Shown: piece by piece, positions 10,804 through 35,319 of the stretch
Layout of the letters: the number at the start of each line of letters is the position of its first letter
Position numbering within the stretch: position 1 is the stretch's first letter
Source of the DNA: Williamsia sp. 1135
Lineage (GTDB): Bacteria > Actinomycetota > Actinomycetes > Mycobacteriales > Mycobacteriaceae
Direction: 5' to 3'
Assembly (NCBI RefSeq): GCF_002095395.1
Contig: NZ_MJEI01000059.1
Location: 1-37,290, forward strand
Length of the DNA: 37,290 nt
The notes under the pieces: generated by a model
What the model was told of the DNA's origin: nothing
Database searches by the model: none
Seen by the model: only the letters and a program-made list of their open reading frames with translations
Position numbers and translations under genes: made by a program

Positions 10804-11053
10804 ACCCCGGTCCTCGACTTCAGCTCTGAGCTGGGTGTGGTGCATCAGCACAGCCACCTCGCCCGCAATCTTCACGCGTCTTCACACTCACGGATCCCTT
10901 CCGTGGCACTGCATACCCCAAAACCCGGTTGTTCGACGTCAGGACTGGTTCGCCCGCAATGGCCGCTTTCAGTCCGTCTCGCCGTTCACCAAATGCAATT
11001 CCCCACTAATCGTCTGATGCGCAATTTAAACACAGAAACTTCGTTACGGTAGC

Positions 11054-11976: not shown

Positions 11977-12729
11977 TCAGTTCACTTCGAGGCGGGACGC
12001 GAAACCGGGATGGCTGAACGGCAGAGCAGGCGAGAAGGCGACGCCTAGGGTTGCGGCTGCGCCGTTGATGATTCCCCATGTCGTCTCCGATAGGTGTGCG
12101 GCGAAATAGCTGTCGTCGACCCCTTGCTCACGACCGCTGTCGATCCACCACTGAGTCGCAGATAGCCCAGAACCCAGGATGGACGCCACTGCCAAGGGAA
12201 TGATCGAGGCATCTGCGTGAATACGTTGCAGACTTTCAGTGAACCGATCGGCGACGACCTCCATCACCGACATCAATTGGTCAGCAACTCCGCCATTTCC
12301 CGATCCGGAATACTGAAACAAGTGATTCGCCATAAGGAAGCTGACGACCACGGGATGTTGCCCAACCAGCGCGACGTAGGACTGGACCGACGAGCGAATC
12401 ATATCGTCAACAGACGCATGCTCTTGCTCAGCAAGGATTGTGACTTGCGCCGACTCCCACATCAACGCACCGAGCTTCGCCGCCACCGCCCCGTTTAGAC
12501 CCGCTTTGTCTCCGAAGTAGCGGTACAGCTTCGGTTTGGACACGCCTGCTTCCGCAGCAATGTCGTCCATGCTCACGCCTACGCCATGGAGGTCGATGGC
12601 CCGTATGGCCGCATCGACCAACTCCGCTCGTCTTGCGATGCGATGGTCATCCCACCGGGTGCTGCGGGCATCACGCACCCGACGCTGTACCTGAGATGGC
12701 GCGGAGGAAACGCGGCGGACGACTGACAT
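11977..12729 (-). CDS. TetR family transcriptional regulator of the oxygenase operon
   Basis: A 250-residue TetR-type regulator. The helix-turn-helix is at about residues 53-72 (SMDDIAAEAGVSKPKLYRYF), followed by a helical ligand-binding domain. ATG 12729 is chosen over the longer frame from 12774 because the latter adds 15 residues with no ribosome-binding support; the basic N-terminal extension of about 30 residues before the TetR core is still long. It is the last gene of the minus-strand run that begins at 18331, about 80 bp after the hydrolase, so it is a good candidate for the pathway regulator. Its target may be the repeats at 18377-18415 (inference). Confidence 0.88.
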   Translation of the reverse strand: MSVVRRVSSAPSQVQRRVRDARSTRWDDHRIARRAELVDAAIRAIDLHGVGVSMDDIAAEAGVSKPKLYRYFGDKAGLNGAVAAKLGALMWESAQVTILAEQEHASVDDMIRSSVQSYVALVGQHPVVVSFLMANHLFQYSGSGNGGVADQLMSVMEVVADRFTESLQRIHADASIIPLAVASILGSGLSATQWWIDSGREQGVDDSYFAAHLSETTWGIINGAAATLGVAFSPALPFSHPGFASRLEVN

Positions 12730-12807
12730 TGTGGAAACTATCCTACCGGAAGCCCCGAAGCCATCGGCGACCATGTGCGTGAGTCCACAGGCATCGACAG
12801 TTCGCTG

Positions 12808-13725
12808 TCAACGTTCTACCGTGGCTGCGTCCAATCGCGCCACCGCTTCGTTGAAATCGTTCGGTGCCTCCATGTTAATCATGTGACCGATCTGCGGCAA
12901 CGCCACGAGATCATGCAACCGACCGCGCTGCTTCAGCCGTTCGGCGAGATCAGTGGAATGAATCTCAGGTGTCAACTTGTCGGCAGAACCCACGATCACC
13001 GTCGTCGGCACCGCAAGTGAGTCGACTCCTTTGCTGACGTCGATGGAGGCCAGGACCTTCCCCCACATTCCCCGGACCGCAGGTGGGCAACGCAATACTA
13101 TGCCGGAACACTCCGCTACAACGTCGGCCGACGCGTGCGGACCCATCGTCCCGTATTTTACCAACCGTCGGTTGAAACGAGTGTCGAGCATCTCCGGTCC
13201 CGCGATGGCGAGCCCAGCCGCGAAGCCCCGCTCGAGTGTGGCGCGGAATCGACGTGGCGACCTTATTAACGTTGATCTGCTGACCAATTGGGAGGGGCCT
13301 GTGCTCGCTAGCACGGCACCGCGTGATGAGGGACGCACAGAGTGCGGATGCTCGGCAGCCCAACCCATGATGGACATTCCGCCCATACTGTGACCGATCA
13401 CCAAGGCCTTACGACTCGAGGTCACGACCGCGCGCAAGACAGCCTCAAGGTCGTCGCCGAGCAGCGACGACGAGAACTGGGAGTGCCCCCGGTCGCTCCA
13501 GCCATGTCCGCGTTGGTCATACACCACCACACGGTGAGTGTGGGCGAAGTGTTCGATCTGGGGTCGCCAGAACCGGCTCTGGCAAGCCCACCCGTGGCTA
13601 AACACCATTAGTGGCGCATCATCACCCAGCCCGTACTCCTCGACGAACAACCTCGTGCCGTCCCTCGAGAGAACCTCCCGCGATCGCGCCGGCAATAGGC
13701 CAGCTCCCGGATAGTCAAAGGTCAT
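12808..13725 (-). CDS. Alpha/beta hydrolase (putative ester/lactone hydrolase)
   Basis: A 305-residue alpha/beta-hydrolase-fold enzyme. The nucleophile elbow GHSMGG places Ser113; the likely catalytic partners are Asp249 (VGSADKLTP) and His281 (IGHMINMEAP). HGW at 44-46 supplies the oxyanion region and DQRGHGWSD (70-78) is typical of the family. The start overlaps the reductase stop by about 11 bp, so it is translated in the same operon. Placed after a Baeyer-Villiger monooxygenase and an SDR, its expected role is to cleave the ester or lactone made by the former. Haloalkane dehalogenase or C-C hydrolase activity cannot be excluded by sequence alone. Confidence 0.88.
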   Translation of the reverse strand: MTFDYPGAGLLPARSREVLSRDGTRLFVEEYGLGDDAPLMVFSHGWACQSRFWRPQIEHFAHTHRVVVYDQRGHGWSDRGHSQFSSSLLGDDLEAVLRAVVTSSRKALVIGHSMGGMSIMGWAAEHPHSVRPSSRGAVLASTGPSQLVSRSTLIRSPRRFRATLERGFAAGLAIAGPEMLDTRFNRRLVKYGTMGPHASADVVAECSGIVLRCPPAVRGMWGKVLASIDVSKGVDSLAVPTTVIVGSADKLTPEIHSTDLAERLKQRGRLHDLVALPQIGHMINMEAPNDFNEAVARLDAATVER

Positions 13726-14785
13726 CGAAACTCACCGTCACAGCGTCGGTGAGCGGAAGTGCCTGGCACGCGAGTCGCTCACCGTCCTCAATGTCGTCGT
13801 TGACGAGGATGTTGTTCTGCGCCATCTCGACATCGCCCTCGATGAGCTTGCAGACACACGCGCTGCACGCGCCCTCTCGACATGAGTACGGGGCGTTGTG
13901 CCCTCGTGAGAGAAGCACATCGAGCAGCGGTGTGTTACGTGGCCATTCCGTGGTGATGCACTCTCCGTTGAGGTAAACCGTGGCTGTAGCTACACCTTCG
14001 TCGTCGCTGAGTCGACGTAGTGTGGCGGTGTCAAACGGGTCACCCGCCAGTGACTGGAACACCTCCCGATGTACATCCGAATGGTCCACTCCACACGCGG
14101 CGGCAGACCTTTCCACCAGATCCATGAATGGGGAAGGGCCGCACGTGAAGATCGACGACCCCTTGTGATCACGAATAATCTTCTCGACAGCCACGGATGT
14201 GGGGAGCCCGTTCTCGGACTCAAGCCAGTAGACCAGGGTGAACCGCTCGGCGAATTCAGATCTGATCTGCTGAAGCTGGCGCTCGTACATGACCGAATCG
14301 GCGTCACGGTTCGCGTAGAACAGCACGACTTCTCCACTCCCCGACACCAGTGCTGACTTCACCAGCGACAGGACCGGCGTGATGCCACTTCCGCCGGCGA
14401 AGAAGAGCATGTCAACGTCGAGGCTCTTAGCGGTGAACTTTCCCGATGGCGTGAGTACGGTCACCTCCATACCGACGGAGACGTTGTCACACAACCAGTT
14501 CGACGCATATCCCCCAGCGGTGCGCTTCACCCCGATCTCAAGGCGAAAGTCGTCGACATGGGGCGAACTGCTCAGCGAATAGCATCGTGCGACGTGGCCC
14601 GTCTGGTCCGACGGGATTTTCAGCGTAATGAACTGACCGGGTAGATGCTTGAAATCGTCTACGATCTCGTCAGGCACTTCGAAGGCGATGCTGACGGAGT
14701 CCTTGGTCTCCTGCACGACCTCCGACACGGTGAGCGTCCGCGATCGCGCGGTCGTGCCCGGCCGATTTTCCTGCTCGACGCTCAT
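13715..14785 (-). CDS. Ferredoxin-type oxygenase reductase (FNR-like with C-terminal 2Fe-2S, KshB/PaaE-like)
   Basis: A 356-residue iron-sulfur flavoprotein that passes electrons from NAD(P)H to an oxygenase. An FNR-like FAD domain comes first (RCYSLSSSP, residues 67-75), then a nucleotide domain (GGSGITP 131-137; CGP 215-217). The C-terminal plant-type 2Fe-2S domain has ligands Cys302, Cys307, Cys310 (CREGACSAC) and Cys340. This order is that of KshB, the 3-ketosteroid 9-alpha-hydroxylase reductase, and of PaaE. Its stop overlaps the hydrolase start, and its own start overlaps the SDR stop by four bases (ATGA). No Rieske oxygenase is present, so the operon's diiron oxygenase is the natural electron acceptor (inference). 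Confidence 0.92.
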   Translation of the reverse strand: MSVEQENRPGTTARSRTLTVSEVVQETKDSVSIAFEVPDEIVDDFKHLPGQFITLKIPSDQTGHVARCYSLSSSPHVDDFRLEIGVKRTAGGYASNWLCDNVSVGMEVTVLTPSGKFTAKSLDVDMLFFAGGSGITPVLSLVKSALVSGSGEVVLFYANRDADSVMYERQLQQIRSEFAERFTLVYWLESENGLPTSVAVEKIIRDHKGSSIFTCGPSPFMDLVERSAAACGVDHSDVHREVFQSLAGDPFDTATLRRLSDDEGVATATVYLNGECITTEWPRNTPLLDVLLSRGHNAPYSCREGACSACVCKLIEGDVEMAQNNILVNDDIEDGERLACQALPLTDAVTVSFDDL

Positions 14786-15651
14786 TTAATGATTCCCCGC
14801 TTTCGGGCCAATGCGTAGCCCGCACGTGAAACAGGCGCAGAGATGTCCTGGTAGCGCGGACCGACAACGCGTGCAACAAAGTCGAAGCCCCGCGCGTCTG
14901 CGCCGATCAGCACTCGAGGCTTCTTCTTGTCCATTCCCTTGAGGATGGTGGACGCCGCTTTCTCCGGAGTGGTCCGGGCAATGTTGTTGAACATTGTGGC
15001 AATGGTGGCGGTATCTGCCCCCATATCGGATACACCCCGAGCGTTATTGACGATATTAGTTTTGACGCCGCCGGGGTGAACGCATGTCACTGTGACCGGA
15101 TGCCGACTGATCTTCATCTCTTGGCGAAGCGCTTCGGTGAAGCCACGCACACCGAACTTGGCGGCATTATAGGCACTCTGACTCGGGATACCGACCAGAC
15201 CGAAGACGCTGGAAGTGTTGACCAGATGACCATCACCGGAGGCGATTAGATAGGGCAGGAAGGCCTTCGTCCCGTTGACGACACCACCGAAGTTGATACC
15301 CATCAGCCAGTCAAAGTCCTCCCAGGACATGTCAACAACGTCGGCGCCGAGGGCGACGCCGGCATTGTTGAACACCATGTTGACGGCCCCAAAAGATGAC
15401 TGGACGCTCTCGGCGTAATCCTGGAAGGCAGCACGATCTGCCACGTCCAACACGGCGGTCTCGACTTTCGCCCGATGCGCGGTACGGCACATAGCCGCCG
15501 TTTCCGTGAGATGTACCTCGTCGACGTCGGACAAGGAAAGGCTGGCCCCGCGTGCAGCCAGTTGGAGGGCGAGGGACCGGCCGATCCCTGAAGCGGCTCC
15601 CGTGACGACTGCGACCTGGTTCGCATAATTGTCTGCTGTCGAACTACTCAC
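14782..15651 (-). CDS. Short-chain dehydrogenase/reductase (putative alcohol dehydrogenase)
   Basis: A 289-residue classical SDR. The cofactor motif TGAASGIG is at 17-24, NNAG at 95-98, and the catalytic set Ser148, Tyr161 and Lys165 (YNAAK) is complete. Asp42, at the end of the second strand, favours NAD over NADP. The C-terminal part with DKKKPRVLIGADAR resembles SDRs that occur with Baeyer-Villiger monooxygenases in actinobacteria. The start is GTG at 15651, about 40 bp after the monooxygenase stop. The likely role is oxidation of a secondary alcohol to the ketone used by the monooxygenase. The reverse reaction or another substrate is possible. Confidence 0.9.
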   Translation of the reverse strand: MSSSTADNYANQVAVVTGAASGIGRSLALQLAARGASLSLSDVDEVHLTETAAMCRTAHRAKVETAVLDVADRAAFQDYAESVQSSFGAVNMVFNNAGVALGADVVDMSWEDFDWLMGINFGGVVNGTKAFLPYLIASGDGHLVNTSSVFGLVGIPSQSAYNAAKFGVRGFTEALRQEMKISRHPVTVTCVHPGGVKTNIVNNARGVSDMGADTATIATMFNNIARTTPEKAASTILKGMDKKKPRVLIGADARGFDFVARVVGPRYQDISAPVSRAGYALARKRGIIK

Positions 15652-15690
15652 TGTTAAATACTCACTTCTCGATGACCTACGGCTGGGTTG

Positions 15691-17214
15691 TTAGGCGATC
15701 TCGTACTCGGTGGGCTTGAAGTCCTTCGTCGCTCGCCAGTACTGCCAGGTGAATCCGGGCCACACCGTACGGTTGACACCCTGCGAGTCCAGATACCAGC
15801 TCGTACATCCGCCGTTGGTCCATACGCCCTTGGCGAGCTTGTGCTGGATGTCCTTGTTGAAGTGTTCTTGAACCTCGGGCCGCACATCAACGCGCTGCGC
15901 TCCGCGACTGTCGACGGCGTCAATGGCCTTCATGATGTACTTGATTTGCTGCTCGATCATGAATACAACAGAGTTGTGCCCCAGACCAGTGTTAGGTCCG
16001 AGTAGGAAGAACAAGTTCGGGAATCCCTCGGTGGTGATGCCGAGGTGGGTGTTGATGCCCGTCTCGTGCCAGTGCGACGGCAGATCCTCGCCCCGGGCGC
16101 CTTTGAGCGCGAGTTGATCGAACCCGTCCGTGACATGAAACCCTGTGGCGTAGATGATCACATCTACAGAGTGCGACACGCCGTCAGCGGTGACGATAGA
16201 GTCCGCGGTGACCTTTTCGATCCGATCGCTGATCACTGTCGTGTTGGGCGCGGCGAGTGCGGGATAGTAGTCGTTCGATCCCAGGATGCGTTTACATCCG
16301 ATGCGGTAGGACGGCATCAACTTGCGGCGTAGTCCGGGGTCAGTGATGGAACGCTCGATGTTCCATTTCGCCACCTTTTCGATTGGTCGCATAAGGTTGG
16401 AGTGGCCGTTGAGCCCGAAGGCCAGGCTCTCTGCGCCCCAGTAGACCGACCACCGCGCGAGACGGCGAGTAACAGGGATCTTGCTGAGCAAGGTCCGAAG
16501 CGCAGTCGGCACTGCGAAGTTTTTGCGTGGAAGCACCCACGCCGGGGTTCGCTGGAAGACCGTGAGTGCGCTGGCCTCCTTCTGCACGAACGGCACGAAC
16601 TGAATCGCGCTGGCACCGGTGCCAATGACGGCCACCCGCTTGCCCTGGAGATCCACCGTGTGATCCCACTTTGCCGAATGGAATGCCTGACCGGTGAAAT
16701 CGTCGATTCCAGGGATGCTCGGATAGTTCGGGATGTGCAGAGCGCCGACACCGGACACGACATACTGTGCGATGTACTCTCGGCCCGACTCGGTACGCAG
16801 GTGCCACCGAGATTCGGACTCGCTCCAATATCCGGATACTAACTTCTGCCCGAAGTGAATCTTCTGAGTGACACCACGCTTGTTGGAAATCTCTTTCAGG
16901 TACTGCTCGATTTCGGGCTGCGAGGACCACACCTTCGACCAGCTGCCGCGGCTCTCGAACGAGTAAGAATACATCAGTGACGGTACGTCGCATGCACATC
17001 CTGGGTAGGTGTTGTCGCGCCACGTCCCGCCGACGGAGTCAGCCTTTTCCAGCACGATGAAATCGCTGTACCCACTTCGGCGAAGCTGCACGGCCATACC
17101 GAGGCCGGAGAAACCACTGCCGATGATAAGCACTTTAGTAGTGATGGGTTCGGTCGTTCCCGGGTCTGTCGCCGTGGCGGCGCGCGTTGCGCGCTTGGTG
17201 TTGGAGGACGGCAT
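15691..17214 (-). CDS. Baeyer-Villiger-type flavin monooxygenase
   Basis: A 507-residue FAD/NADPH enzyme that inserts oxygen next to a carbonyl, turning ketones into esters or cyclic ketones into lactones. It carries the type I Baeyer-Villiger fingerprint FxGxxxHxxxW(D) as FTGQAFHSAKWD (173-184), flanked by two Rossmann motifs, IGSGFSGLG (31-39) and GTGASAIQ (198-205). GGTWRDNTYPGCACD is also typical. ATG 17214 is preferred to the frame opening at 17289; a GGAGA lies 11 nt upstream. It is preceded by the diiron oxygenase gene and followed by the SDR. Related mycobacterial proteins (EthA, MymA) have the same layout, but the substrate here is unknown. Confidence 0.93.
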   Translation of the reverse strand: MPSSNTKRATRAATATDPGTTEPITTKVLIIGSGFSGLGMAVQLRRSGYSDFIVLEKADSVGGTWRDNTYPGCACDVPSLMYSYSFESRGSWSKVWSSQPEIEQYLKEISNKRGVTQKIHFGQKLVSGYWSESESRWHLRTESGREYIAQYVVSGVGALHIPNYPSIPGIDDFTGQAFHSAKWDHTVDLQGKRVAVIGTGASAIQFVPFVQKEASALTVFQRTPAWVLPRKNFAVPTALRTLLSKIPVTRRLARWSVYWGAESLAFGLNGHSNLMRPIEKVAKWNIERSITDPGLRRKLMPSYRIGCKRILGSNDYYPALAAPNTTVISDRIEKVTADSIVTADGVSHSVDVIIYATGFHVTDGFDQLALKGARGEDLPSHWHETGINTHLGITTEGFPNLFFLLGPNTGLGHNSVVFMIEQQIKYIMKAIDAVDSRGAQRVDVRPEVQEHFNKDIQHKLAKGVWTNGGCTSWYLDSQGVNRTVWPGFTWQYWRATKDFKPTEYEIA

Positions 17215-17362
17215 TGAAGTGAGATTCTCCTGATCGAAGTACAGCAAATGGACCTGCACGACGCGGGGCGTGGCAGGTGTGAATGTCATTCGCCCGGTCC
17301 CTAGCGCAGAGATCCGAACGTTGAGTCGAGACGGCTCGCGGCCGCGCAGACGTGGGCGGGTG

Positions 17363-18331
17363 TCAGCGCAGGTCGTCGGGGAGGCTGCGCGTTGCGCGCC
17401 ACATCGCCATTGTGAACTTGCCCTCCATCATCCCGGCTTCGTGGAAGAACCGGATCATAGGCTCGGACATGAACTGCAAGTTGACGCGATAGTTCGGGCT
17501 CGTCTGCTGAGTCCACAGGCCGCGCAGACGGCTGATTCCGTTCGCGGGATAGACCTTTGGATTGATGAGCAACGGGTACGCGAAGTTCGCAATGGCCGCC
17601 AGCGTGCCTCGATGCCAAGCGCGTGAGATGCGTCCGCGACGCTGCATGCCCTCTACCATTTCTAGGCGCGCGAACGTGATGTGGCGGGCCTCTTCGAGAA
17701 CGTGGATCTTCATGAGCTGGCGCAGCTGCGGCTGCATCTTCGGGTCATTCATCGCTTCACGCTGGGCGCGGTCAAGTATCTCTTCGATGAGCAGAGTCGC
17801 ACCGGATACAGACGGGCCGAGAGGCACGAAGTGCAGGATCTTCGCAAAACTCAAGAACCCCTTCGGTAATTTGTACGGTGCCAACCCCGTCTTGTTGATC
17901 AGCCTCGCAAACATTGTCGAGTGGCGAGCCTCGTCGCCAATCTCGTTGAGGGCGTAGAGCGCCCTTTGATCTGTCAGGGCGCCTTTGGCAGACGTTCGGA
18001 GCAGCGCTGAGCTGAGCAGATTCTCTGCGTAGATACCGAAGCTGAGAATGCTGACAATTTCATGGCGGCCGAGTTCCACCTTCTGCTCATCGCTCATTTT
18101 CTCCCACAGCTTGGTGCCGTAGAGCGAGACACGATGCTCGGGCAGGAAATACTTCCCCTCCTCCCAGGGCGAGTCCCAATCGATGTCGATCTCCGCGTCG
18201 TAGAACTTTTCGGCCGCCGCCCGCAGGAGTCGGCCGGCAGACCTTTGCATGTCGACGGGCTTGCGGGCACTAACGCGCGCAACCCCTTCCGTCGAAACGT
18301 CGGGCTTGATCTCAACTTTTTGAACGGTCAT
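17363..18331 (-). CDS. AurF-like diiron oxygenase, paralogue 2 (first gene of the oxygenase operon)
   Basis: A 322-residue non-haem diiron protein. The seven metal ligands of the AurF family are all present with matching spacing: Glu103, Glu134 and His137 (DEARH), Glu183, His210, Glu214 and His217 (HVLEEARH). ATG 18331 has GGAGGTG just upstream. The gene leads the run oxygenase, Baeyer-Villiger enzyme, SDR, reductase, hydrolase, TetR, so it probably performs the first oxygenation, with electrons from the reductase at 13715-14785. Characterised family members are aryl-amine N-oxygenases; the neighbours here fit C-H hydroxylation instead, which is inference. The promoter region upstream carries repeats (18377-18415). 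Confidence 0.87.
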   Translation of the reverse strand: MTVQKVEIKPDVSTEGVARVSARKPVDMQRSAGRLLRAAAEKFYDAEIDIDWDSPWEEGKYFLPEHRVSLYGTKLWEKMSDEQKVELGRHEIVSILSFGIYAENLLSSALLRTSAKGALTDQRALYALNEIGDEARHSTMFARLINKTGLAPYKLPKGFLSFAKILHFVPLGPSVSGATLLIEEILDRAQREAMNDPKMQPQLRQLMKIHVLEEARHITFARLEMVEGMQRRGRISRAWHRGTLAAIANFAYPLLINPKVYPANGISRLRGLWTQQTSPNYRVNLQFMSEPMIRFFHEAGMMEGKFTMAMWRATRSLPDDLR

Positions 18332-18376: not shown

Positions 18377-18415
18377 TACCCGATACCCCGGGTACCCGAT
18401 ACTGCTAGTATCGGG
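18377..18415. promoter_or_regulatory. Repeat cluster in divergent promoter, likely operator
   Basis: TACCCGATAC occurs twice in direct orientation (18377-18386 and 18393-18402). The second copy forms a perfect inverted repeat, CCCGATAC-tgcta-GTATCGGG (18395-18415). A CCCGGG palindrome lies between the copies. The block sits 46-84 bp upstream of the diiron oxygenase start and 50-88 bp upstream of the DUF4873 start, so one regulator could control both directions. The TetR at 11977-12729 is the local candidate. Confidence 0.7.
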
Positions 18416-18464: not shown

Positions 18465-18806
18465 GTGTCTGACGACCACGATCTCGACTACTCCGGCGAG
18501 GGCACCTTGGTGTGCCGTGGCAAGGAGATTGCTGTCGGGGTGAAAATCAAAGGCTATTTCCAGCCCCTCAACGGCTTGTACACCTGGTACGGCAGGATCG
18601 ACAAAAATGATGCGCTCGACACCCTCCTCGCGGGCAGGCGCACGGTTGCTGTCTTCGTGACACCAGAGGGACGCGCCGAGTGCCTCGTGGGCGATCCTGA
18701 TTTCTGGGACCGATATCGCATTACGGGCACGAGCAGGCCGCCATACCACATCCCCACCACGCTCGAGGAAGTGGAGTCGATAGTAGAGAGTCAATATTAC
18801 AGCTGA
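18465..18806 (+). CDS. DUF4873 domain protein
   Basis: A 113-residue soluble protein that looks like the DUF4873 family: an early YSGEGTLVCRGKEIAVGVKIKGYFQPLNG-type beta-rich half, then WYGRI, and a C-terminal GDPDFWDRYRITGTSRPPY. In actinobacteria this domain occurs alone or joined to flavin monooxygenases; its function is unknown to me. The start is GTG with a GA-rich ribosome-binding stretch just upstream. It is divergent from the diiron oxygenase across the repeat cluster and about 60 bp upstream of mmpL on the same strand, so it may be co-expressed with both. A role as an accessory to the oxygenase pathway is inference. Confidence 0.75.
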   Translation: MSDDHDLDYSGEGTLVCRGKEIAVGVKIKGYFQPLNGLYTWYGRIDKNDALDTLLAGRRTVAVFVTPEGRAECLVGDPDFWDRYRITGTSRPPYHIPTTLEEVESIVESQYYS

Positions 18807-18869: not shown

Positions 18870-21800
18870 GTGGTCAGGTCGTCGATCATTCACAACCGTC
18901 CATCGAGGCGTTCTGCCGGAACCAGTGAATACAGCGCTCATCTGGAAAAGGTCGCCTGGTTCACGCTGCGGCGCAAGGGATTCGTGGCGTCGGTCTGGGT
19001 CGTGGTTGCGATCGGCCTAGCGGTGCTATTTCCGCAGCTGGAGTCCGTGATCCGACAACAGTCGGTGGACCCGATACCCGCGGGCGTGCCGTCATTTCAG
19101 ACGCTCGACCGGATGGGTGAGGCGTTCAATGAGAAGGGGGCCAAGACCACCGTCTTCGTCGCCATGGAGAACGACAGGGGTTTCTCGGACACCACACGCG
19201 CCAGGTATGACGAATTGGTGACCGCGCTGCGTGCGGACACGGAACACGTCATCGCAGTCCGCAATCTGCTCGGCGACCCGCTTACGGAGAGTCAGGCGCT
19301 GAGCAAAGACAGGAAGGCGTGGTATCTGCCTGTCGGTGTCACCGGGACGTTGGGCGGACCGGACGCTGCCGACGCCGTGGAAGCGGTTCGCGACACCGCG
19401 GACGAGATCTTTGATGGTACCGACACAACGGTTCGAGTGACCGGTCCACCTGCCACATTCACCGACCAGCTCGCGGTCGGTGAGTCCGATCTGGTCCTGA
19501 TCACGATCGCCACGGTGCTGTTGATCGCCGGAATCCTGCTGGTCGTCTACCGATCGGTCTTCACCGCTCTCATGCCGCTGCTGGTGGTCGGCATGAGCCT
19601 GGGAGTGGGCCGCGGGGTGCTCTCCGGTTTGGGCGAATTGGGCATGCCCGTGTCTCAGTTCACCTCGATGTTCATGACGGTAATTATCTTCGGCGCCGGA
19701 GTCGACTATTCCGTGTTCCTTATAAGCCGCTATCACGAGGGCATCCGGGCCGGCAATACCCCTGACGTGGCCATTGCGAACGCCACAGCAACGATTGGTC
19801 GCGTGGTGCTCGCGTCCGCAGCGACAGTTGCCTTTGCTTTCTTAGCGATGGCGTTCGCCAAGCTCAGCGTGTTCAACACGCTCGGCCCGGCGTGCGCGAT
19901 CTCTATCGCCTTTGGCTTCTTGGCAACCGTCACTTTGCTGCCCCCCGTGTTGTCGTTCGCGGCAAAGCGTGGTGCGGGTCTACCTCGTCGCGACCTCACC
20001 AGGCGGTACTGGCATCGGGTGGGAACGGGGGTGATCCGGCGGCCGGTCCCGCTGCTCGCGGTGAGTCTGGTGGCACTGATCGCTCTCGGCCTTATCGCGA
20101 CCACTATGACAATCACCTATGACGATCGGGAAGGTCAGCCGTCGGATACCGGAAGCAACGAGGGATACGCGCTGCTGAACCGGCATTTTCCCAAAGACGC
20201 CATCATTTCCGAGTTCCTTCTGGTGGAGTCGAACAATGACATGCGCACCGGTCAGGGACTGGCCGATCTTGAACAGATGGCGTCGCGCGTAGCGCAGACG
20301 CCCGGTGTCACCCGCGTCATCGGGGTGACTCGCCCGACGGGCGAGAAGCTTGAGCAGGCTGAATTGTCATGGCAGAACGACCAGATCGGTAGTGGTATCA
20401 CCGAACAGACCGGTGACGCACAGTCACGGAAGGGCGACCTGGAGCTACTGAGGATCGGGTCCTCACAACTCGCCGACGGTCTTGCTCTGCTGAACGAGCA
20501 AATCACCACCAACCTCGCGCCGCTGTCGGGGGTGCTCGAGCAGGCCTCGTCGGCCGGCGAGCAGCTCAGCCAGTATCGTCCGCTCATCGATCAGCTGGCT
20601 GCTGCGGCGCCCGCACTCAATGAGTTCTCCCAACAAGCTCCTGAACTGTCTCGAGTGGCACGACAGGCACAGTCGGCTGCCGACTCCGTCGCACCGGCGT
20701 TGAGTGCACTCGATGCTCCCTGGTGCGTTCAGATTCCGCAGTGTTCGGCTTTGCAGGCGCAGACCTCGGACATCCGCGCATTGGCCGACAACCAGTCCCT
20801 CGGTCATGTCGCGGACTTCGCTACCCAGCTCGGTGGGGTCGAGGGCCCGGGAACGGCGGACCTCGCGCAGTTGCAGAGCTCATTGGACGTCCTCGACTCC
20901 GCGCTGCAGACGATCAACGGCCAGGACCTCGGCAGTCGGTTGTCACAGCTCCAGACGGGTGTCAGAGCGCTCGCCGACGGGGCCCGGCAGCTGGCCGGCG
21001 GTGTGAGCGCATTGGTGGACAGCAACCTGCAACTGCTGGCGGGCCTGTCTCAGGTGGCCGCCCAGCTACGCGCGCCCGCCCGGGACATCGGCAACTCTGA
21101 CTCGGCAACGGGGTTTTACCTACCCGCCGACGCGTTCAAGGATCAACAGTTCAGTCAAGTGGCGCGTCAGTTCATCTCGCCGGATGGAAAGACCGTTCGC
21201 TTTGTAGTGCAGACCGCCTACGATCCGTATACCGCGGATGCTATGACGTTGGCGAACAGTCTGTCGAAGGTGGCCGAGGACGCCATGCCGAACACCACGC
21301 TGCAGGGTGGGCGCGCATCTGTCGCCGGGTTCCCGGCGATCAACGCCGACGTCCAACGACTTCTGGCGTACGATTTCAAGTTACTCGGATTCGGAACGCT
21401 CCTGATAGTCGGCTTGATCCTAATGCTTTTGCTCAGGGCGATCGTCGCACCGATCTATCTACTGGCCACCGTTGTTCTCAACTACGCAGCCGCCCTAGGT
21501 ATCGGTGTTCTTGTCCTGCAACACATTTTCGGCAATGAAATTGCGTGGCCGGTCCCGCTGGTGTCCTTTATCGTTCTGGTTGCAGTGGGGGCCGACTACA
21601 ACATGCTGTTGGTTTCCCGGCTCAGAGAGGAGTCGACGGCCAATATCCGGCTCGGAGTTCTACGCACCGTCGCATACACCGGCTCGGTCATCACCTCGGC
21701 CGGTTTGATTTTCGCGGCGAGCATGTTCGGACTCATGCTGGGATCGATTGACGTGATGGTGCAGATCGGTTTCATCATCGGTATCGGGTTACTCCTGGAC

Positions 21801-21956
21801 ACCTTTCTTGTTCGCACTATTGTCGTTCCTGCGTTGGCGGCATTGCTCGGTGAGGCGAGCTGGTGGCCAGGGCGGGTGCACCGCGCGGTCGTGAGCCGGG
21901 ATTCCAGCGAGGTAGGACCCTATGCCCGAGGACATTTGACGACGTCTAATCTCTGA
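18870..21956 (+). CDS. MmpL/RND-family membrane transporter
   Basis: A 1028-residue inner-membrane transporter of the MMPL (RND) superfamily. It has two membrane halves, each with the proton-relay Asp-Tyr pair: GAGVDYSVFLISRYHE (Asp279-Tyr280) and GADYNMLLVSRLRE (Asp909-Tyr910). Large periplasmic loops follow the first helix of each half. The second loop (about 430-850) has a long Gln/Ala/Leu-rich stretch that predicts coiled coil, as in the larger mycobacterial MmpLs. The GTG start at 18870 is supported by GAGAGGAA 8 nt upstream. No MmpS partner is seen. MmpLs move lipids, siderophores or drugs. Position beside the oxygenase operon and opposite mce suggests a hydrophobic cargo. Confidence 0.93.
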   Translation: MVRSSIIHNRPSRRSAGTSEYSAHLEKVAWFTLRRKGFVASVWVVVAIGLAVLFPQLESVIRQQSVDPIPAGVPSFQTLDRMGEAFNEKGAKTTVFVAMENDRGFSDTTRARYDELVTALRADTEHVIAVRNLLGDPLTESQALSKDRKAWYLPVGVTGTLGGPDAADAVEAVRDTADEIFDGTDTTVRVTGPPATFTDQLAVGESDLVLITIATVLLIAGILLVVYRSVFTALMPLLVVGMSLGVGRGVLSGLGELGMPVSQFTSMFMTVIIFGAGVDYSVFLISRYHEGIRAGNTPDVAIANATATIGRVVLASAATVAFAFLAMAFAKLSVFNTLGPACAISIAFGFLATVTLLPPVLSFAAKRGAGLPRRDLTRRYWHRVGTGVIRRPVPLLAVSLVALIALGLIATTMTITYDDREGQPSDTGSNEGYALLNRHFPKDAIISEFLLVESNNDMRTGQGLADLEQMASRVAQTPGVTRVIGVTRPTGEKLEQAELSWQNDQIGSGITEQTGDAQSRKGDLELLRIGSSQLADGLALLNEQITTNLAPLSGVLEQASSAGEQLSQYRPLIDQLAAAAPALNEFSQQAPELSRVARQAQSAADSVAPALSALDAPWCVQIPQCSALQAQTSDIRALADNQSLGHVADFATQLGGVEGPGTADLAQLQSSLDVLDSALQTINGQDLGSRLSQLQTGVRALADGARQLAGGVSALVDSNLQLLAGLSQVAAQLRAPARDIGNSDSATGFYLPADAFKDQQFSQVARQFISPDGKTVRFVVQTAYDPYTADAMTLANSLSKVAEDAMPNTTLQGGRASVAGFPAINADVQRLLAYDFKLLGFGTLLIVGLILMLLLRAIVAPIYLLATVVLNYAAALGIGVLVLQHIFGNEIAWPVPLVSFIVLVAVGADYNMLLVSRLREESTANIRLGVLRTVAYTGSVITSAGLIFAASMFGLMLGSIDVMVQIGFIIGIGLLLDTFLVRTIVVPALAALLGEASWWPGRVHRAVVSRDSSEVGPYARGHLTTSNL

Positions 21957-22209: not shown

Positions 22210-23853
22210 TCAGTTCGGCACGACGACGAGATTCCCGTCGGCATGTTGGGAACGCAGAGCTCTTTTGTCGAACTTGCCCACGCTGGTGCGGGGCACCTGG
22301 TCCACGAACGCCCAGTTCTTGGGAATCCACCAACGAGGGATCTCGTCGGGGCAATTCTCGAGGAACCACTGGCCGAGTTGATCGGCGGTAACGTCGCTGC
22401 CGTGCGTCCGGACGACCACGGCTAGGGCCGTCTCCTGCCATCGATCGTGGGGGATAGCGATCACGGCAGCCTCGGCCACCTGAGGATGGCCCATTATGGT
22501 GTTCTCGAGCTCCACCGATGAGACCCACTCGCCACCGGACTTGATGACGTCCTTCGTTCGATCGGTGAGCGTCAGATAACCGTCTTGGCTGATGTGGCCA
22601 ACGTCGCCGGTTCGCAGCCAGCCGTCACGGAACTTGTCGCTGTCTTCGTCCATATTGTAATAGCTACCGGTGATCCACGGCCCCCTCACTTCCAGTTCCC
22701 CCACGGACCTGTCGTCACGTGGAACCGGCATACCTGCCTCGTCGGTGAGACGCATCTCGACGCCACAGATGGCACGGCCCTGACGCTTGCGATACGACAT
22801 ATCGGATTCCGGTGCGACACCGGCCGGTGGTCGACTCACCGCGGCGAGTGGCGAGGTTTCCGTCATCCCCCACGCTTGGATAATCGGGACGCCGAACCTG
22901 TCCGCGAATCCCTCGATCAACGACTGCGGCACCGCCGCACCGCCGCAGGCGACCAGACTGATCGACGACAGATCCACGTCGGGATGCGATGTCCCAAACT
23001 GCAATAGATCGTTCCAGATGGTCGGAACGGCACCCGCTTTCGTGGGCCGATGTGTCTGAATCATGTCCGCCAGAGGAGCTGCTTGCAGGAATCGGTCGGG
23101 CAGAAGTAAGTCGGCACCCGCCATAAGGGCCGCATAGGGTAGGCCCCAGGCACTGGCGTGGAACATCGGCACCACGGGCAGGACTCGGTCACCTTCCTCC
23201 ACGGCGAGCGCATTGCCGGTACAGGCTGCCATCGAGTGAAGGAACACCGAACGGTGGCTGTAGACAACGCCTTTGGGGTCTCCCGTGGTTCCGCTGGTGT
23301 AGCACATAGCCGCCGCCGATTTCTCATCGGGTTCTGCCCACGGAAAGGCCGGGGACTCCGCAGCGAGCGCGTCCTCATAACGAATTATTTCGACGCCGTT
23401 GCCCTCCAGCGCCGACACCTCCCCACCGCCGGCGACGAACACGACACGTACGGTCGGCAGGCCCGGCAGCAGCGGCGCCAGCAACGGCACTAGCGAACTA
23501 TCCGTGATGATGACCCGGTCCTCGGCGTGGTTCGCGATGAACGACAGTTGGGACGCAGACAACCGTAGATTCAGGGTGTGCAGGACGGCACCCATGGCGG
23601 GAACCGCAGCGTACGCCTCGAGGTGCTCCTGATTGTTCCACAGCAAAGTGGCGACCCGGTCATCGTCGCCCACACCGGCACGACGCAGAGCATTGGCCAG
23701 CTGCCCGCAGCGTTCCTCAAGGGGCCCGTAAGTCGTGGTTCGAGCCGGTTCGGCGCCGCCGTAGGTGATCACCTGCCTGCCGGCGTGATTCGTCGCGACG
23801 TGGCGAAGGATCGACGACACCGTCAAAGGTACGTCCTGCATCGTGCTCTTCAT
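22210..23853 (-). CDS. Acyl-CoA synthetase (AMP-forming, FadD-type)
   Basis: A 547-residue ANL-superfamily enzyme that activates a carboxylic acid to acyl-AMP and then acyl-CoA. Seen are the P-loop YTSGTTGDPKG (185-195), QAWGMTETSP, WLRTGDVG with the conserved Asp, a DRTKDVIKSGGEW hinge, and the C-terminal catalytic Lys in GKFDKRAL. It resembles medium/long-chain AlkK-like ligases. ATG 23853 has GGAG 11 nt upstream. It lies 33 bp after mas and is the last gene of the mce run, so its substrate is probably an acid imported by the Mce complex or made from imported material (inference). Confidence 0.92.
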   Translation of the reverse strand: MKSTMQDVPLTVSSILRHVATNHAGRQVITYGGAEPARTTTYGPLEERCGQLANALRRAGVGDDDRVATLLWNNQEHLEAYAAVPAMGAVLHTLNLRLSASQLSFIANHAEDRVIITDSSLVPLLAPLLPGLPTVRVVFVAGGGEVSALEGNGVEIIRYEDALAAESPAFPWAEPDEKSAAAMCYTSGTTGDPKGVVYSHRSVFLHSMAACTGNALAVEEGDRVLPVVPMFHASAWGLPYAALMAGADLLLPDRFLQAAPLADMIQTHRPTKAGAVPTIWNDLLQFGTSHPDVDLSSISLVACGGAAVPQSLIEGFADRFGVPIIQAWGMTETSPLAAVSRPPAGVAPESDMSYRKRQGRAICGVEMRLTDEAGMPVPRDDRSVGELEVRGPWITGSYYNMDEDSDKFRDGWLRTGDVGHISQDGYLTLTDRTKDVIKSGGEWVSSVELENTIMGHPQVAEAAVIAIPHDRWQETALAVVVRTHGSDVTADQLGQWFLENCPDEIPRWWIPKNWAFVDQVPRTSVGKFDKRALRSQHADGNLVVVPN

Positions 23854-23886: not shown

Positions 23887-24573
23887 TTATTCAGCTGGGC
23901 CGTAGTCCTGGATCTGCCAGCTCCCAGCCGTTTTCGACACAATTACCTTTAACAACGTCGGCAGTTCACTTGGTTGTGGGTTTTGCACGTTCTGCGTCTT
24001 CTGGCTCGCGAAGACCATCACCGTGTACTCGCCGTCGGTGTCACCGGTGACGCTGGTGGCCAGAACGCGTCCCGACGCTTGCACCTGGGCTTGCTGCATG
24101 ATTTGCGTCAGCGTCGGTCGAACCTCGTCGTAGCGCTTGATAAGCGCCTCACCTGCGTTCTCCTTGACCGCTGCAAAAAAGGCGTCGGTGTTTTCGTAGC
24201 TGTAGGTCAGGGACTTGGTCGTGTAATCCGAGGCGGCCTCCGCCGCCGCGGCCCGTTGCGCGGCGTCGTTTTCCAATGTCGACTTCGCGTCGTCGGCCTC
24301 GAGGTAGAGGTAGGCGAACACGCCAACCAGCACAGCGAGCACCACGATCACGGCCGAAACGGCCACGGCAGCACGTGATTGCGGCAATGCTGACCAGCGA
24401 CGCCCACTCGGCGAGGGGGGGGCGACGTCGCTGTCGTCAACCCCCGCCGTGGCTACAGAAGCAGTTAGGGCGTTTTCGTCCACCAGCAGATCGCCATCCG
24501 TCGTCGCTGCTGCCGCGCCGTCCTCGACCTCAGTGGGCTCAGTAGGCGGTTTGGTCTGCTCGTCATTTGTCAT
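23887..24573 (-). CDS. Mce-associated membrane protein (Mas)
   Basis: A 228-residue single-pass membrane protein. An acidic, Ala/Glu/Asp-rich cytoplasmic tail (1-65) leads to one membrane helix (about 68-91) and an external domain of about 130 residues with the alternating pattern of Mce-associated proteins (EALIKRYDEVRPTLTQIMQQ, then a beta-rich end). Such genes follow mceF in most actinobacterial mce operons, and their products stabilise or help the transporter. An AAGG lies upstream of ATG 24573. It sits between mceF (about 50 bp) and fadD (33 bp) on the same strand. Confidence 0.85.
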   Translation of the reverse strand: MTNDEQTKPPTEPTEVEDGAAAATTDGDLLVDENALTASVATAGVDDSDVAPPSPSGRRWSALPQSRAAVAVSAVIVVLAVLVGVFAYLYLEADDAKSTLENDAAQRAAAAEAASDYTTKSLTYSYENTDAFFAAVKENAGEALIKRYDEVRPTLTQIMQQAQVQASGRVLATSVTGDTDGEYTVMVFASQKTQNVQNPQPSELPTLLKVIVSKTAGSWQIQDYGPAE

Positions 24574-24622: not shown

Positions 24623-25582
24623 TCATCGTGGTGCCGGCGACATGGTGATGGGGACCTCGGCGCGACCTGGTCGCGACGTCGGGAAGGTTCGGGCGAGGAG
24701 GTCGCCGATCGACCCGAAGTCGACGTAGGTGTCCGCAACCTTCTCGGTCGCCGGTTTCACCGCACGGGTGATCGTCAGCAGATCAGGCTGCAGGATTTGG
24801 ATGTAGCCGCTGAGCTTTTCCACAAGCTTCAACACGGGAGGCCACTTGTCGTACGAGGTGGTCGTGAACTCGATGAACGCCCGCTGAATTCGCGCCAGCC
24901 CGTTCACGGCGTCAGGGGTACGCACAGCTGCCGCACTGAGGACGTCCCCGACGTTGGACATGAGGCCGAGCAGGAACTCGGCGTTGTCCGCAGTCACCCG
25001 GACGGAGCCATCCTTGCCGACGAAATCGACTAGGCGGTACATCATGTCGCCGATCATGTCGAGGTCTCCCTGCTGTCCGGCGACGGCCTCGGCGACGGTC
25101 TTGTTGATGGACTCGATCGATGCCGGGTCGAGCCCATCTGCCACTGCAGCCATCTTCGGCAACACCTGGGGCACCGATTGCGACACGTGCACCGCCTCAG
25201 CGGGCACCACGTCTCCGTTGCGGAAGTACCCGCTGGTGGCCGTGCCCGCGGGCACGAAGTTGATGTACTGTTCCCCCGCAAGTGACAGATTCTGGATAGA
25301 CATCACACTGTCCTGGGGGATCTTGTTATCGGAATCGATCGCCATCTCGACCTTAAGTGCCGAATCCACGACGTTGATGGAGGCCACCCTTCCGACAGGT
25401 ATCCCCCGCACCATCACCGGCGACGTATCCAGCAGACCGCCCGAGCTGTCGATGAAGGCGGTTAACGAGTACTCGGAGCGGGTGGGGTTCACGCGTGCCA
25501 CGCCGACGACAAGGTAGCCAAGCCCTACAACGAACACGACGGCCAAAGCCACCATAGATATGAGCGTGCTGCTGCGGTTCAC
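24623..25582 (-). CDS. mceF: MceF-type substrate-binding protein
   Basis: A 319-residue Mce/MlaD-family protein, sixth and last of the set. One N-terminal membrane helix (about 8-28) is followed by the MlaD/Mce domain (VMVRGIPVGRVASI, then SLAGEQYINFVPAG) and a helical tail. Six different Mce proteins form the periplasm-spanning channel of the lipid importer. The GTG start overlaps the mceE stop (GTGA). At 319 residues it is shorter than the MceF proteins of mycobacterial Mce1-4, mainly in the tail. Confidence 0.9.
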   Translation of the reverse strand: MNRSSTLISMVALAVVFVVGLGYLVVGVARVNPTRSEYSLTAFIDSSGGLLDTSPVMVRGIPVGRVASINVVDSALKVEMAIDSDNKIPQDSVMSIQNLSLAGEQYINFVPAGTATSGYFRNGDVVPAEAVHVSQSVPQVLPKMAAVADGLDPASIESINKTVAEAVAGQQGDLDMIGDMMYRLVDFVGKDGSVRVTADNAEFLLGLMSNVGDVLSAAAVRTPDAVNGLARIQRAFIEFTTTSYDKWPPVLKLVEKLSGYIQILQPDLLTITRAVKPATEKVADTYVDFGSIGDLLARTFPTSRPGRAEVPITMSPAPR

Positions 25583-26616
25583 GGCATCATTCCGATCGAT
25601 TTCAACACGGTAATAAACGATTCGGCGTCCCGCCGCGCCAGGTTCCGGCCATCGATGGAGATGTCCGAAAGGTTGATATCGGGCGACCCCACGAATGGAA
25701 TCAGTTTGTCGCGGATGACGCGCGTTGCCTGCTCCGTGAAGGACTTTGAGTAAATGTCGGAGTTGGCGATCGACGCAATCACCGGGGCGATCGCAGCCAC
25801 CGACTCCTTGATGCGTGAGTACTCCGGATCCACGATCCTGCCCGCGGCCACAGCGAAATCACGCAAGTTGGCGATGAGTAACGCGACGTCGATCAGGGAG
25901 TAGCCGAGGCCATAAAAGTTGCGTCCACCCTTAGTCAGCATCCGGTCGATTCCCGATGGATCAGCCAAGATCACCTTCAGAGTCCGATCAGCCGACCTCA
26001 ACACTACGTCGAGCTTGTCAGTGTTCGAGGAGACCTCCGAAACGGTCTCCAGCGTTGTCCGATACAGGGCGTCGAATTCCTGCGGGTCCTTGGGGAACGT
26101 GGTGTTCAATGTCGAGATGGCGGTGTGGATCTTGTCGAGCTCACCGCCGCCGAGGACATTCGCCATTCCGCGCATGACGTCCTCGACATTTGCTGCCGGC
26201 TCGGTCCGTGCCAGCGGGATCACCGAACCCGACCGCAGCAAGGCACCCGTCGACGGCTCGGCTGGGGGAAGGATGGCAACGTAGATCTCACCGAGGAGAG
26301 TGTCTTGACGCAGTTCGGCTCGCGATTCGCCCGGCAGCTGAGTCTTGTGATCGATGCGAGCTTCGACGACCGCATGCCCGTTCTCGTACGTGACATCTTC
26401 GACGGTTCCGACGCTGATCCCCTCCGACAGGACTTTAGCGAGGGCTGGCAGGTTGAGTGCGCTGGTGAACTCCATCTGGATGTCGTAGCCGTTGCCGTCG
26501 GAGGTCCCTACGGTCGGCGGATTGTCGGCGTTGATCCCACATGACGTCACGAACACCATCGCTGCCATCAGTGCGACTATCGTGGGTCCGAGGCGTGCCC
26601 GGTTGACCGAGATCAT
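25579..26616 (-). CDS. mceE: MceE-type lipoprotein
   Basis: A 345-residue Mce/MlaD-family lipoprotein. A hydrophobic N-terminal signal (about 9-25) ends in the lipobox VTSC with acylated Cys26, as expected of the MceE/LprK position. The Mce domain follows (LSEGISVGTVEDV, then LLGEIYVAILPP). Its start directly touches the mceD stop and its own end overlaps mceF. As an anchored subunit it would be part of the importer's periplasmic tube. Confidence 0.92.
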   Translation of the reverse strand: MISVNRARLGPTIVALMAAMVFVTSCGINADNPPTVGTSDGNGYDIQMEFTSALNLPALAKVLSEGISVGTVEDVTYENGHAVVEARIDHKTQLPGESRAELRQDTLLGEIYVAILPPAEPSTGALLRSGSVIPLARTEPAANVEDVMRGMANVLGGGELDKIHTAISTLNTTFPKDPQEFDALYRTTLETVSEVSSNTDKLDVVLRSADRTLKVILADPSGIDRMLTKGGRNFYGLGYSLIDVALLIANLRDFAVAAGRIVDPEYSRIKESVAAIAPVIASIANSDIYSKSFTEQATRVIRDKLIPFVGSPDINLSDISIDGRNLARRDAESFITVLKSIGMMP

Positions 26617-27665
26617 CAGGCCCCTCCACCCATCATCCCGGCGATCGTCCTTGATGCATCGCCGGGCCTGCAGACGCCGTTTGCCACTGGCGCAGCGCAG
26701 CTACTGACGAGGCTTCGCAAAGGCAGCGACACTGCGAACGCCTGCACGATCGACTTGGCATCGGGGTGTTTGACGATGAGGTCTGCCGTGCGGGCTGCTA
26801 CTGCTGCCATCATGTCCGGCTGCTCTCCCATGCCGGCGATGAGCGGAACGGCAGCATCACCGATCGCGAATACCGGGGGACCGAAATCTGTTGCGAGCCG
26901 CGAGAGGATCGGTACGAACGTCCCCGCGTACTCGACTGCCGCACCGAACGTCTGGCCGAACGCGACGATGACATTGATGGCACCGACGAAGTTGTCGAAG
27001 AGGGCGGTCAGCTCTTTGTCGTTCTCAGTTGCCACCCCCGTCAGTGTTGCGAGGTTCCCGACGATCCTGCGAATCTGTCCATCCCGCTTGGCCGGGTCGT
27101 TGATGAGCGTGGCAGAGTCCTTGATGATCCCGGCCACGTCGCCCTGTGTCCCTTCCAGATTGCGGGAGACGAGCTTGAGGGACTGCAGGACGGCGTCGGT
27201 GTTTCTACCGTTGTCCTTGACCAGGTCCTCGGACAAGTTGCTGATCGAGTCGAGCGTCTGACTGACGCCTAGCGGGGTTCTCGTCTTACTCAACGGAATG
27301 CACTGATTCGTCTCGTATCGGGCTCCACCGGAGTACGGCTTGGTGAACTCTATCTGACGTTCGGTCACGATGGATGTCGACACCATGGTCGCGCCGACGT
27401 CGGCGGACAGCGGCACGCTCTTGTCGACCCGCATCTCGACCCTTACACCGGACTGACCTTTATTCTGTTGCACCCCAACGACGCTGCCCACCTTCTTGCC
27501 GAGCATGGCGACTGCGTTGCCTTCGAAGAGGCCCGATGCATCGGTGAACTCTGCGCACAAGGCACGCGTGTCGTCGGACGCTGTCCGCCCTATCCCGATA
27601 CCAGCGATGACCACAACCACCACGGCGACCAAGAGCAGCAGCCTTCGGACCCAGGTGGTCAACAT
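26616..27665 (-). CDS. mceD: MceD-type substrate-binding protein
   Basis: A 349-residue Mce-family protein with an N-terminal membrane helix (about 7-26) and the Mce domain (AVAMLGKKVGSVVGVQQ, then IVTERQIEFTKPYSGG). A helical tail follows, ending in a short Cys-containing C-terminus (SCAAPVANGVCRPGD). The ATG at 27665 overlaps the end of mceC by 7 bp. It has the fourth-position order of an mce operon. Confidence 0.9.
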   Translation of the reverse strand: MLTTWVRRLLLLVAVVVVVIAGIGIGRTASDDTRALCAEFTDASGLFEGNAVAMLGKKVGSVVGVQQNKGQSGVRVEMRVDKSVPLSADVGATMVSTSIVTERQIEFTKPYSGGARYETNQCIPLSKTRTPLGVSQTLDSISNLSEDLVKDNGRNTDAVLQSLKLVSRNLEGTQGDVAGIIKDSATLINDPAKRDGQIRRIVGNLATLTGVATENDKELTALFDNFVGAINVIVAFGQTFGAAVEYAGTFVPILSRLATDFGPPVFAIGDAAVPLIAGMGEQPDMMAAVAARTADLIVKHPDAKSIVQAFAVSLPLRSLVSSCAAPVANGVCRPGDASRTIAGMMGGGA

Positions 27666-30687: not shown

Positions 30688-30695
30688 TTCAACCC

Positions 30696-31559: not shown

Positions 31560-31569
31560 GTATTCTCCG

Positions 31570-35022: not shown

Positions 35023-35059
35023 AACAGCTTTCCTTCCGGGTGGGGTTTCGTGTTCGGAT

Positions 35060-35291: not shown

Positions 35292-35319
35292 CGGGTCGTA
35301 GGCCTTTCTGGTGGTGTAT

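Follow-up and report, generated by a model that had tools for sequence, protein, structure and literature searches.

An AurF-type diiron oxygenase operon of Williamsia sp. 1135 as part of a candidate mobile regulon for lipophilic compounds

A 37,290-nt stretch of Williamsia sp. 1135 DNA (contig NZ_MJEI01000059.1; hereafter the window) was analyzed, with emphasis on an operon at positions 11977-18331 that is headed by a gene for an AurF-family diiron oxygenase. We slightly favor the reading that the window encodes a mobile regulon for the catabolism of a lipophilic substrate, with C-H hydroxylation as its first step. The evidence computed here comprises the gene order, the iron ligands and predicted fold of AurF, its linkage to a DUF4873 protein and to a reductase, an operator common to the operon and an Mce-type importer, the linkage to Mce genes, degenerate AurF paralogs and the selection acting on them, and plasmid carriage. 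The operon contains the following genes.

17363..18331, minus strand: AurF-family diiron oxygenase, predicted catalytic subunit (322 aa; PF11583, 244.9 bits against a cut-off of 29.6; seven ligands)
15691..17289 (open reading frame, ORF), minus strand: type I Baeyer-Villiger-like flavin monooxygenase, BVMO (FMO-like Pfam match; FTGQAFHSAKW)
14782..15651, minus strand: short-chain dehydrogenase, SDR, presumably converting alcohol to ketone (adh_short, 168 bits; TGAASGIG, YNAAK)
13715..14785, minus strand: PaaE-like FAD/NAD(P)H/2Fe-2S reductase, RED, proposed electron donor of AurF (Fer2, NAD_binding_1 and FAD_binding_6)
12808..13725, minus strand: alpha/beta hydrolase, presumably for ester or lactone hydrolysis (Abhydrolase_1; GHSMG)
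11977..12774, minus strand: TetR-family regulator, presumed to bind a 27-bp operator (TetR_N)

An earlier note, made from the letters of this DNA, had described these six ORFs as an oxygenation pathway; all were confirmed at the claimed minus-strand positions, and the overlaps at 14782-14785 and 13715-13725 are exact. BVMO carries the FxGxxxHxxxW fingerprint (FTGQAFHSAKW) and the Rossmann motif GSGFSG, its best PDB relatives are cyclohexanone, steroid and phenylacetone monooxygenases, and by its sequence it is a predicted type I Baeyer-Villiger monooxygenase. Plasmid orthologues have annotated lengths of 504-506 aa, which probably places the true BVMO start near 17214 rather than at 17289. RED possesses the cysteine motif C-x4-C-x2-C-x29-C and scored 239 bits against TIGR02160 (PaaE), short of the cut-off of 420.8; judged from its domains and this score, it has the PaaE architecture but is not PaaE itself.

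The seven AurF-type ligands listed by the earlier note (E103, E134, H137, E183, H210, E214 and H217) were all found in the enzyme and are invariant in a 41-row alignment, and all five AurF proteins of this genome retain them. Membership in PF11583 is indicated by the profile, the 3-His/4-Glu ligands and a predicted AurF/CmlI fold. The identity to AurF and CmlI was 13-14% over the structural alignment; neither phmmer nor a subfamily profile matched the protein to AurF/CmlI, and a broad profile gave E values of 0.11-0.12 for AurF. Searches at E <= 0.001 returned no hydroxylase family of the methane monooxygenase (MMO)/PaaA type, Pfam giving PF11583 only and NCBIfam giving none.

The conservation of the operon was examined in the best 79 of 305 relatives from a scan of named genomes. 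These loci are not independent, as many are near-identical Nocardia and Gordonia entries, and 17 are shorter than 17 kb and could hide neighbors; gene presence was called by identity thresholds and a 7-kb limit of our choosing. AurF-BVMO-SDR-RED was found in 54 of the 79 loci, and the four-gene order occurs in records of Williamsia, Gordonia, Rhodococcus, Dietzia, Jongsikchunia, Nocardia, Antrihabitans, Aldersonia and Mycobacterium/Mycobacteroides. As the order is also carried on plasmids, the conserved gene order expected by the earlier note was borne out for these four genes, the hydrolase lying outside the conserved core. Smaller sets were AurF-BVMO-SDR (7 loci), AurF-SDR-RED (4), AurF-RED (2) and AurF-SDR (1), and the Amycolatopsis and Pseudonocardia loci were without RED. 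SDR was present in 67 loci versus 62 for BVMO, and some relatives may therefore stop at the ketone. The four-gene set was rearranged in one locus, that of Segniliparus rugosus (L101), where two adjacent AurF genes, both with seven ligands, follow a BVMO-SDR pair.

In six of the 79 loci, RED stayed beside AurF in the absence of BVMO, and AurF, RED and DUF4873 alone make up the whole unit in L044/G015. These results suggest that RED probably serves AurF, in line with the pairing proposed in the earlier note.

A further partner lies just outside 11977-18331, divergent from the head of the operon.

18465..18806, plus strand: DUF4873 protein, predicted accessory component of the AurF oxygenase (PF16170, 100 bits against a cut-off of 25)

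DUF4873 was found near AurF in 73 of the 79 loci. An independent scan of 118 genomes of the class detected 11 DUF4873 genes, spread over 10 genomes and including the two of this genome; none is more than 2 kb away from AurF. BVMO stands between DUF4873 and AurF in three cases (L150, L152, L153), and DUF4873 is fused to a flavoprotein-like part in two (L147, L148). The structural model is a small beta-barrel, for which PilZ and split-barrel flavin-binding folds were considered and no match was decisive. In the lipothrenin cluster, according to the excerpts of PMC10616846, deletion of the AurF homologue LitN abolishes N-hydroxylation and deletion of the DUF4873 protein LitO reduces it. From the genomic linkage and these deletion phenotypes, an accessory role in this branch of AurF oxygenases is the best interpretation of DUF4873.

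A candidate operator was found in the AurF/DUF4873 intergenic region, with a second copy near the Mce genes.

18384..18410, no strand assigned: 27-bp double-palindrome candidate operator TAC-N5-GTA-N5-TAC-N5-GTA in the AurF/DUF4873 intergenic region (22-sequence alignment)
32413..32439, no strand assigned: second operator copy with one mismatch, 103 bp before the conserved part of mlaE1

By our reading of the alignment, the first site overlaps the -10 element of aurF, with a conserved TTGACA upstream. Among the 22 aligned intergenic regions, TTGACA was present in all 22; the double palindrome, with variable spacers, matched exactly in 13 and with a single deviating base in the other 9. The 6-Mb genome holds one perfect double palindrome, at 18384-18410, and 32413-32439 is its only other site within one mismatch. 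The shuffles in this analysis were dinucleotide-block shuffles. Because the mlaE1 ORF of the window opens at 32445, the second site could overlap its first codons; the annotated mlaE1 starts of plasmid orthologues lie downstream of the site. A copy at the Mce promoter scoring 11 or 12 of 12 was found in 6 of the 11 loci with upstream sequence, the window included. The upstream distance of this copy from the conserved mlaE1 part is 103-115 bp in L158, L201 (pGKT3), L071 and L072, and 279 bp in L125. In the operator scan of 201 family genomes, an AurF gene is present at 11 of the 30 loci listed. A second group of 14 similar double palindromes (TATTCAATACC core; L186-L199) occurs in other family genomes without the genes of the window. 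In the two that were examined (L192, L198), the palindrome is flanked by a TetR gene on one side and an ABC-2 transporter gene on the other, an arrangement consistent with a TetR-type operator. The TetR protein of the window (11977-12774) is presumed to bind the 27-bp site, and the occurrence of this operator at both the AurF/DUF4873 promoter and the Mce operon predicts a single regulon for import and oxidation.

The Mce region of the window consists of the following features.

24623..32445, minus strand: Mce-type lipid-import operon with two MlaE permeases and six MlaD proteins (Pfam matches on three of the eight genes; true mlaE1 start uncertain)
23887..24573, minus strand: conserved ORF between mlaD6 and fadD, without a Pfam match
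22210..23853, minus strand: FadD-type acyl-CoA ligase closing the Mce operon (AMP-binding, 280 bits; PRK06187, long-chain-fatty-acid-CoA ligase, above its cut-off)

Both MlaE genes were found by PF02405, and orthologous Mce operons are annotated on plasmids. MlaE/MlaD genes were detected in 30 of the 62 loci of at least 17 kb, compared with none of 23 control loci (11 other AurF loci, 3 from this genome and 9 DUF4873 loci), some of which are only 10-17 kb long. Their placement and orientation vary, and their identities range over 24-99%. From the four MlaE pairs of this genome, we estimate a chance expectation of about 2% per 20-kb locus. In Gordonia hirsuta (L124), AurF', AurF, hydrolase, BVMO, SDR, RED, hydrolase and Mce genes lie in succession on one strand, and the operator copy stands before the hydrolase heading the Mce run, not directly before mlaE1. 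Plasmid pGKT3 of Gordonia KTR9 holds the operon with a full Mce set and FadD, and Mce genes adjoin the operon on a Rhodococcus erythropolis plasmid.

Soil Rhodococcus strains and a Gordonia carry the operon on plasmids. Among its carriers are Gordonia alkanivorans, G. paraffinivorans and G. polyisoprenivorans, names that suggest growth on hydrocarbons. An orthologue at 97-98% was found in three of the eight same-genus genomes searched, the other five giving matches near 37-39% or lower. The synonymous distance of AurF from the window copy was 0.28-0.31 for the congeners W. muralis and W. limnetica, 0.28 for G. alkanivorans, and 0.40-0.45 for G. spumicola, Rhodococcus and Dietzia copies. The distance to a copy from another genus is thus on a par with the distances to congeners; combined with plasmid carriage, this indicates transfer. 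Against seven close relatives, the ratio of nonsynonymous to synonymous substitution (dN/dS) was 0.02-0.20 for the five enzymes and 0.03-0.07 for AurF; TetR and DUF4873 were more relaxed (0.17-0.51). By this measure the operon genes are under purifying selection.

The window shows a single-AurF arrangement, with no degenerate hydroxylase paralog beside the operon AurF. In 26 of the 79 loci, on the other hand, an intact AurF has a neighboring paralog missing three to seven of the seven ligands, for example QINHCSQ in a Mycobacteroides paralog versus EEHEHEH; the ligand check covered 135 AurF-type ORFs. A tree of 112 rows (L005, L036-L043 and identical sequences dropped, the window added), built by a quick method that gave long-branch warnings, placed the 26 paralogs in two groups kept apart by supported branches. 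The larger comprises 22 copies, mostly upstream, which form one supported set with their catalytic partners, and the smaller comprises four downstream copies of Rhodococcus/Rhodococcoides. The two label changes on this tree would correspond to two ligand losses, or to one loss and one regain. In 11 pairs, which share species and several of which have dS above 1, dN/dS was 0.10-0.30 for the degenerate copy versus 0.03-0.17 for the catalytic partner. The degenerate copies therefore look like maintained pseudoenzymes under purifying selection, and the simplest reading of an AurF with a ligand-less paralog is a heteromeric oxygenase with a putative alpha/beta contact.

On the reading that we favor, the substrate or product would free the operator from the TetR repressor, and derepression would switch on both the Mce-type importer with its acyl-CoA ligase and the divergent promoter of DUF4873 and AurF-BVMO-SDR-RED-hydrolase. 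Mce would import the lipophilic substrate. Electrons of NAD(P)H would reach the AurF-type diiron protein by way of the PaaE-like FAD/2Fe-2S reductase, with help from DUF4873, and AurF would insert a single oxygen atom, the likeliest target being a C-H bond that is unactivated or subterminal. SDR would turn the alcohol into a ketone, BVMO would insert oxygen, the hydrolase would open the resulting ester or lactone, and FadD would activate the acid for beta-oxidation. In the sister clusters, the oxygenase would apparently be an alpha/beta protein of catalytic AurF and an AurF paralog without iron ligands. These chemical steps and their order, together with operator binding by TetR, electron flow and C-H hydroxylation, are inferred, the steps from knowledge of the enzyme families.

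The oxygenation pathway of the earlier note is thus supported in part, by the gene order, the AurF-RED pairing, purifying selection and the operator common to the lipid importer, which fits catabolism of a lipophilic compound. The hydrolase, not being a core gene, was present at 50% identity or more in just 21 of the 79 loci. Some other loci have a different alpha/beta hydrolase, and weaker alpha/beta-hydrolase matches lie between AurF and BVMO in L123, L124, L129 and L130 (Pfam for L124 only). Besides the hydrolase, several observations weigh against the proposed regulon. The 79 loci are the best-scoring part of the 305 relatives, and the counts therefore favor close kin. AurF stands without BVMO, SDR and RED in 10 loci, and BVMO or SDR is absent from some clusters. 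No RED was found in 18 of the 79 loci, so that a reductase encoded elsewhere may also be used. Of the 62 loci of at least 17 kb, 32 yielded no Mce genes. In 5 of the 11 loci (L085, L088, L104, L106 and L124), the 600 bp preceding mlaE1 yielded no operator copy with a score of at least 11, L106 offering just 280 bp. A reversed-pattern control gave four sites in this genome at one mismatch, which indicates that one-mismatch matches are not rare by themselves, and among the 201 family genomes a perfect operator site occurred in 59 and a perfect control site in 14. LitN, the AurF-like protein with a DUF4873 partner and a described product, is an N-hydroxylase according to the excerpts of PMC10616846, and an amidohydrolase-family gene lies near the L095 cluster.

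The last two points bear on the possibility, which we consider unlikely, that AurF is an N-oxygenase, so that AurF/DUF4873 would N-hydroxylate an imported nitrogen compound such as an amide lipid while BVMO, SDR and the hydrolase act elsewhere on the molecule. The named family members AurF and CmlI are N-oxygenases, LitN with its partner LitO N-hydroxylates an amide (excerpts of PMC10616846), the 3-His/4-carboxylate set is described as largely unique to N-oxygenases (excerpts of PMC12101540), and the amidohydrolase-family gene of the L095 neighborhood would suit such a role. The distance from AurF/CmlI in identity, phmmer and subfamily-profile comparisons argues against it. Furthermore, no amine- or amide-processing gene was recognized among the conserved partners, and SDR and BVMO act, as families, on alcohols and ketones.

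We also give little credence to an operon that starts from a ketone or alcohol, in which BVMO, SDR and the hydrolase would be the pathway and AurF would carry out a different reaction, for instance desaturation, alpha-oxidation or further oxidation of a product. AurF-BVMO-DUF4873 units without SDR/RED matches (L048, L050, L150, L152, L153), the clusters without BVMO, and the many reactions of ferritin-like diiron enzymes (excerpts of PMC12101540) are consistent with it. However, AurF is among the most constrained operon genes, and RED stays with AurF where BVMO is absent.

A transporter gene follows DUF4873.

18870..21956, plus strand: MmpL/RND-family transporter behind DUF4873 (PF03176, 524 bits)

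It is quite improbable, in our view, that the cluster modifies a cell-envelope lipid in a biosynthetic role like that of the mycobacterial mymA operon, with Mce and MmpL moving the lipid. The MmpL neighbor, the Mce genes and the hosts, which are mostly mycolic-acid bacteria, would accord with such a role, whereas plasmid carriage, patchy presence in three of eight same-genus genomes, the FadD gene closing the Mce operon and the common operator suit an accessory catabolic trait. The MmpL/RND transporter adjoins the operon in 15 of the 79 loci and is a variable member of the module.

The statement that no other hydroxylase lies in the operon is literally true, but two oxygenase genes lie nearby on the same strand.

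9640-10875, minus strand: AlkB-type membrane diiron hydroxylase, 1.1 kb past tetR (motifs HELGHK, EHYG, RHSDHH)
6627-7799, minus strand: second AurF (386 bits)
4930-6615, minus strand: ferredoxin/FNR-type reductase directly after the second AurF

That RED serves AlkB or the second AurF, both at most 11 kb away on its strand, is very improbable, as AlkB was seen beside the operon in only 2 of the 79 loci (W. muralis and W. limnetica), a count from which short loci could hide it, and the second AurF is directly accompanied by a ferredoxin-reductase gene of its own. This type of pair occurs twice more in the genome (C6, C26), pointing to two AurF classes with different electron partners.

At the window edge, a DUF302 gene and an MMPL transporter gene were found (34612-37263, minus strand). 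They recur by the AurF operon in five Nocardia loci (L086, L087, L089, L090 and L091), whose MMPL copies are 77-78% identical to that of the window, and may therefore be further module members. An ABC1 (UbiB-like) kinase gene recurs near AurF in L112, L098, L124, L133 and L095, accompanied in the first three by a saccharopine-dehydrogenase-like gene.

In line with the earlier note, searches of open-access papers found no characterized pathway with such a gene set. Soluble multicomponent diiron monooxygenases and PaaABCE consist of a catalytic subunit, a degenerate paralog, a small protein and an FAD/2Fe-2S reductase. The parts of the module parallel these, the degenerate paralog in sister clusters only; in contrast, the Pfam family is different and the window has a single oxygenase subunit. 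To our knowledge, DUF4873 has not been described as a coupling protein. In ketone pathways such as that of the acetone monooxygenase of Gordonia TY-5, and in mymA, a BVMO is likewise accompanied by an esterase or hydrolase and/or a dehydrogenase, but we know of no linkage of these systems to AurF, DUF4873 or Mce. The arylamine N-oxygenases AurF and CmlI (PF11583) differ from the window AurF, apart from the low identity, in that the latter is linked to a dedicated reductase, DUF4873, BVMO and SDR, has a degenerate AurF partner in sister clusters, and has no recognized amine context. In LitN-LitO, an AurF-like oxygenase likewise adjoins a DUF4873 protein and both affect N-hydroxylation; however, the cluster is biosynthetic, the part of its gene table in the excerpts of PMC10616846 lists no BVMO, and LitN is thought to act on an amide nitrogen. 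The dimetal halogenases CylC and NocO are AurF-resembling diiron proteins that functionalize aliphatic carbon, CylC (AurF-like, 12% identity) chlorinating an unactivated carbon, a precedent that speaks for the favored reading. Unlike the window system, they chlorinate acyl-carrier-bound chains with an altered predicted ligand set, and such an operon is not described in the passages of PMC12101540.

We tentatively propose, at somewhat less than even confidence, a new multicomponent diiron hydroxylase class derived from the AurF family. It would comprise AurF, a PaaE-like reductase and DUF4873, to which two lineages apparently independently added a ligand-less beta subunit, convergent with methane monooxygenase and PaaA/PaaC; here it would share one operator with an Mce importer and oxidize C-H bonds of an imported lipid or hydrocarbon. 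If true, the AurF family would gain a carbon-oxidizing branch with a named electron donor, DUF4873 would gain a function, and an Mce importer would be tied to a defined oxidation pathway by a common operator. The ligand-less AurF twins would represent an independent rerun of the way in which methane-monooxygenase-type enzymes gained a non-catalytic subunit. With its plasmid carriage and with carriers named as hydrocarbon users, the module may matter for the breakdown of oil or lipophilic pollutants.

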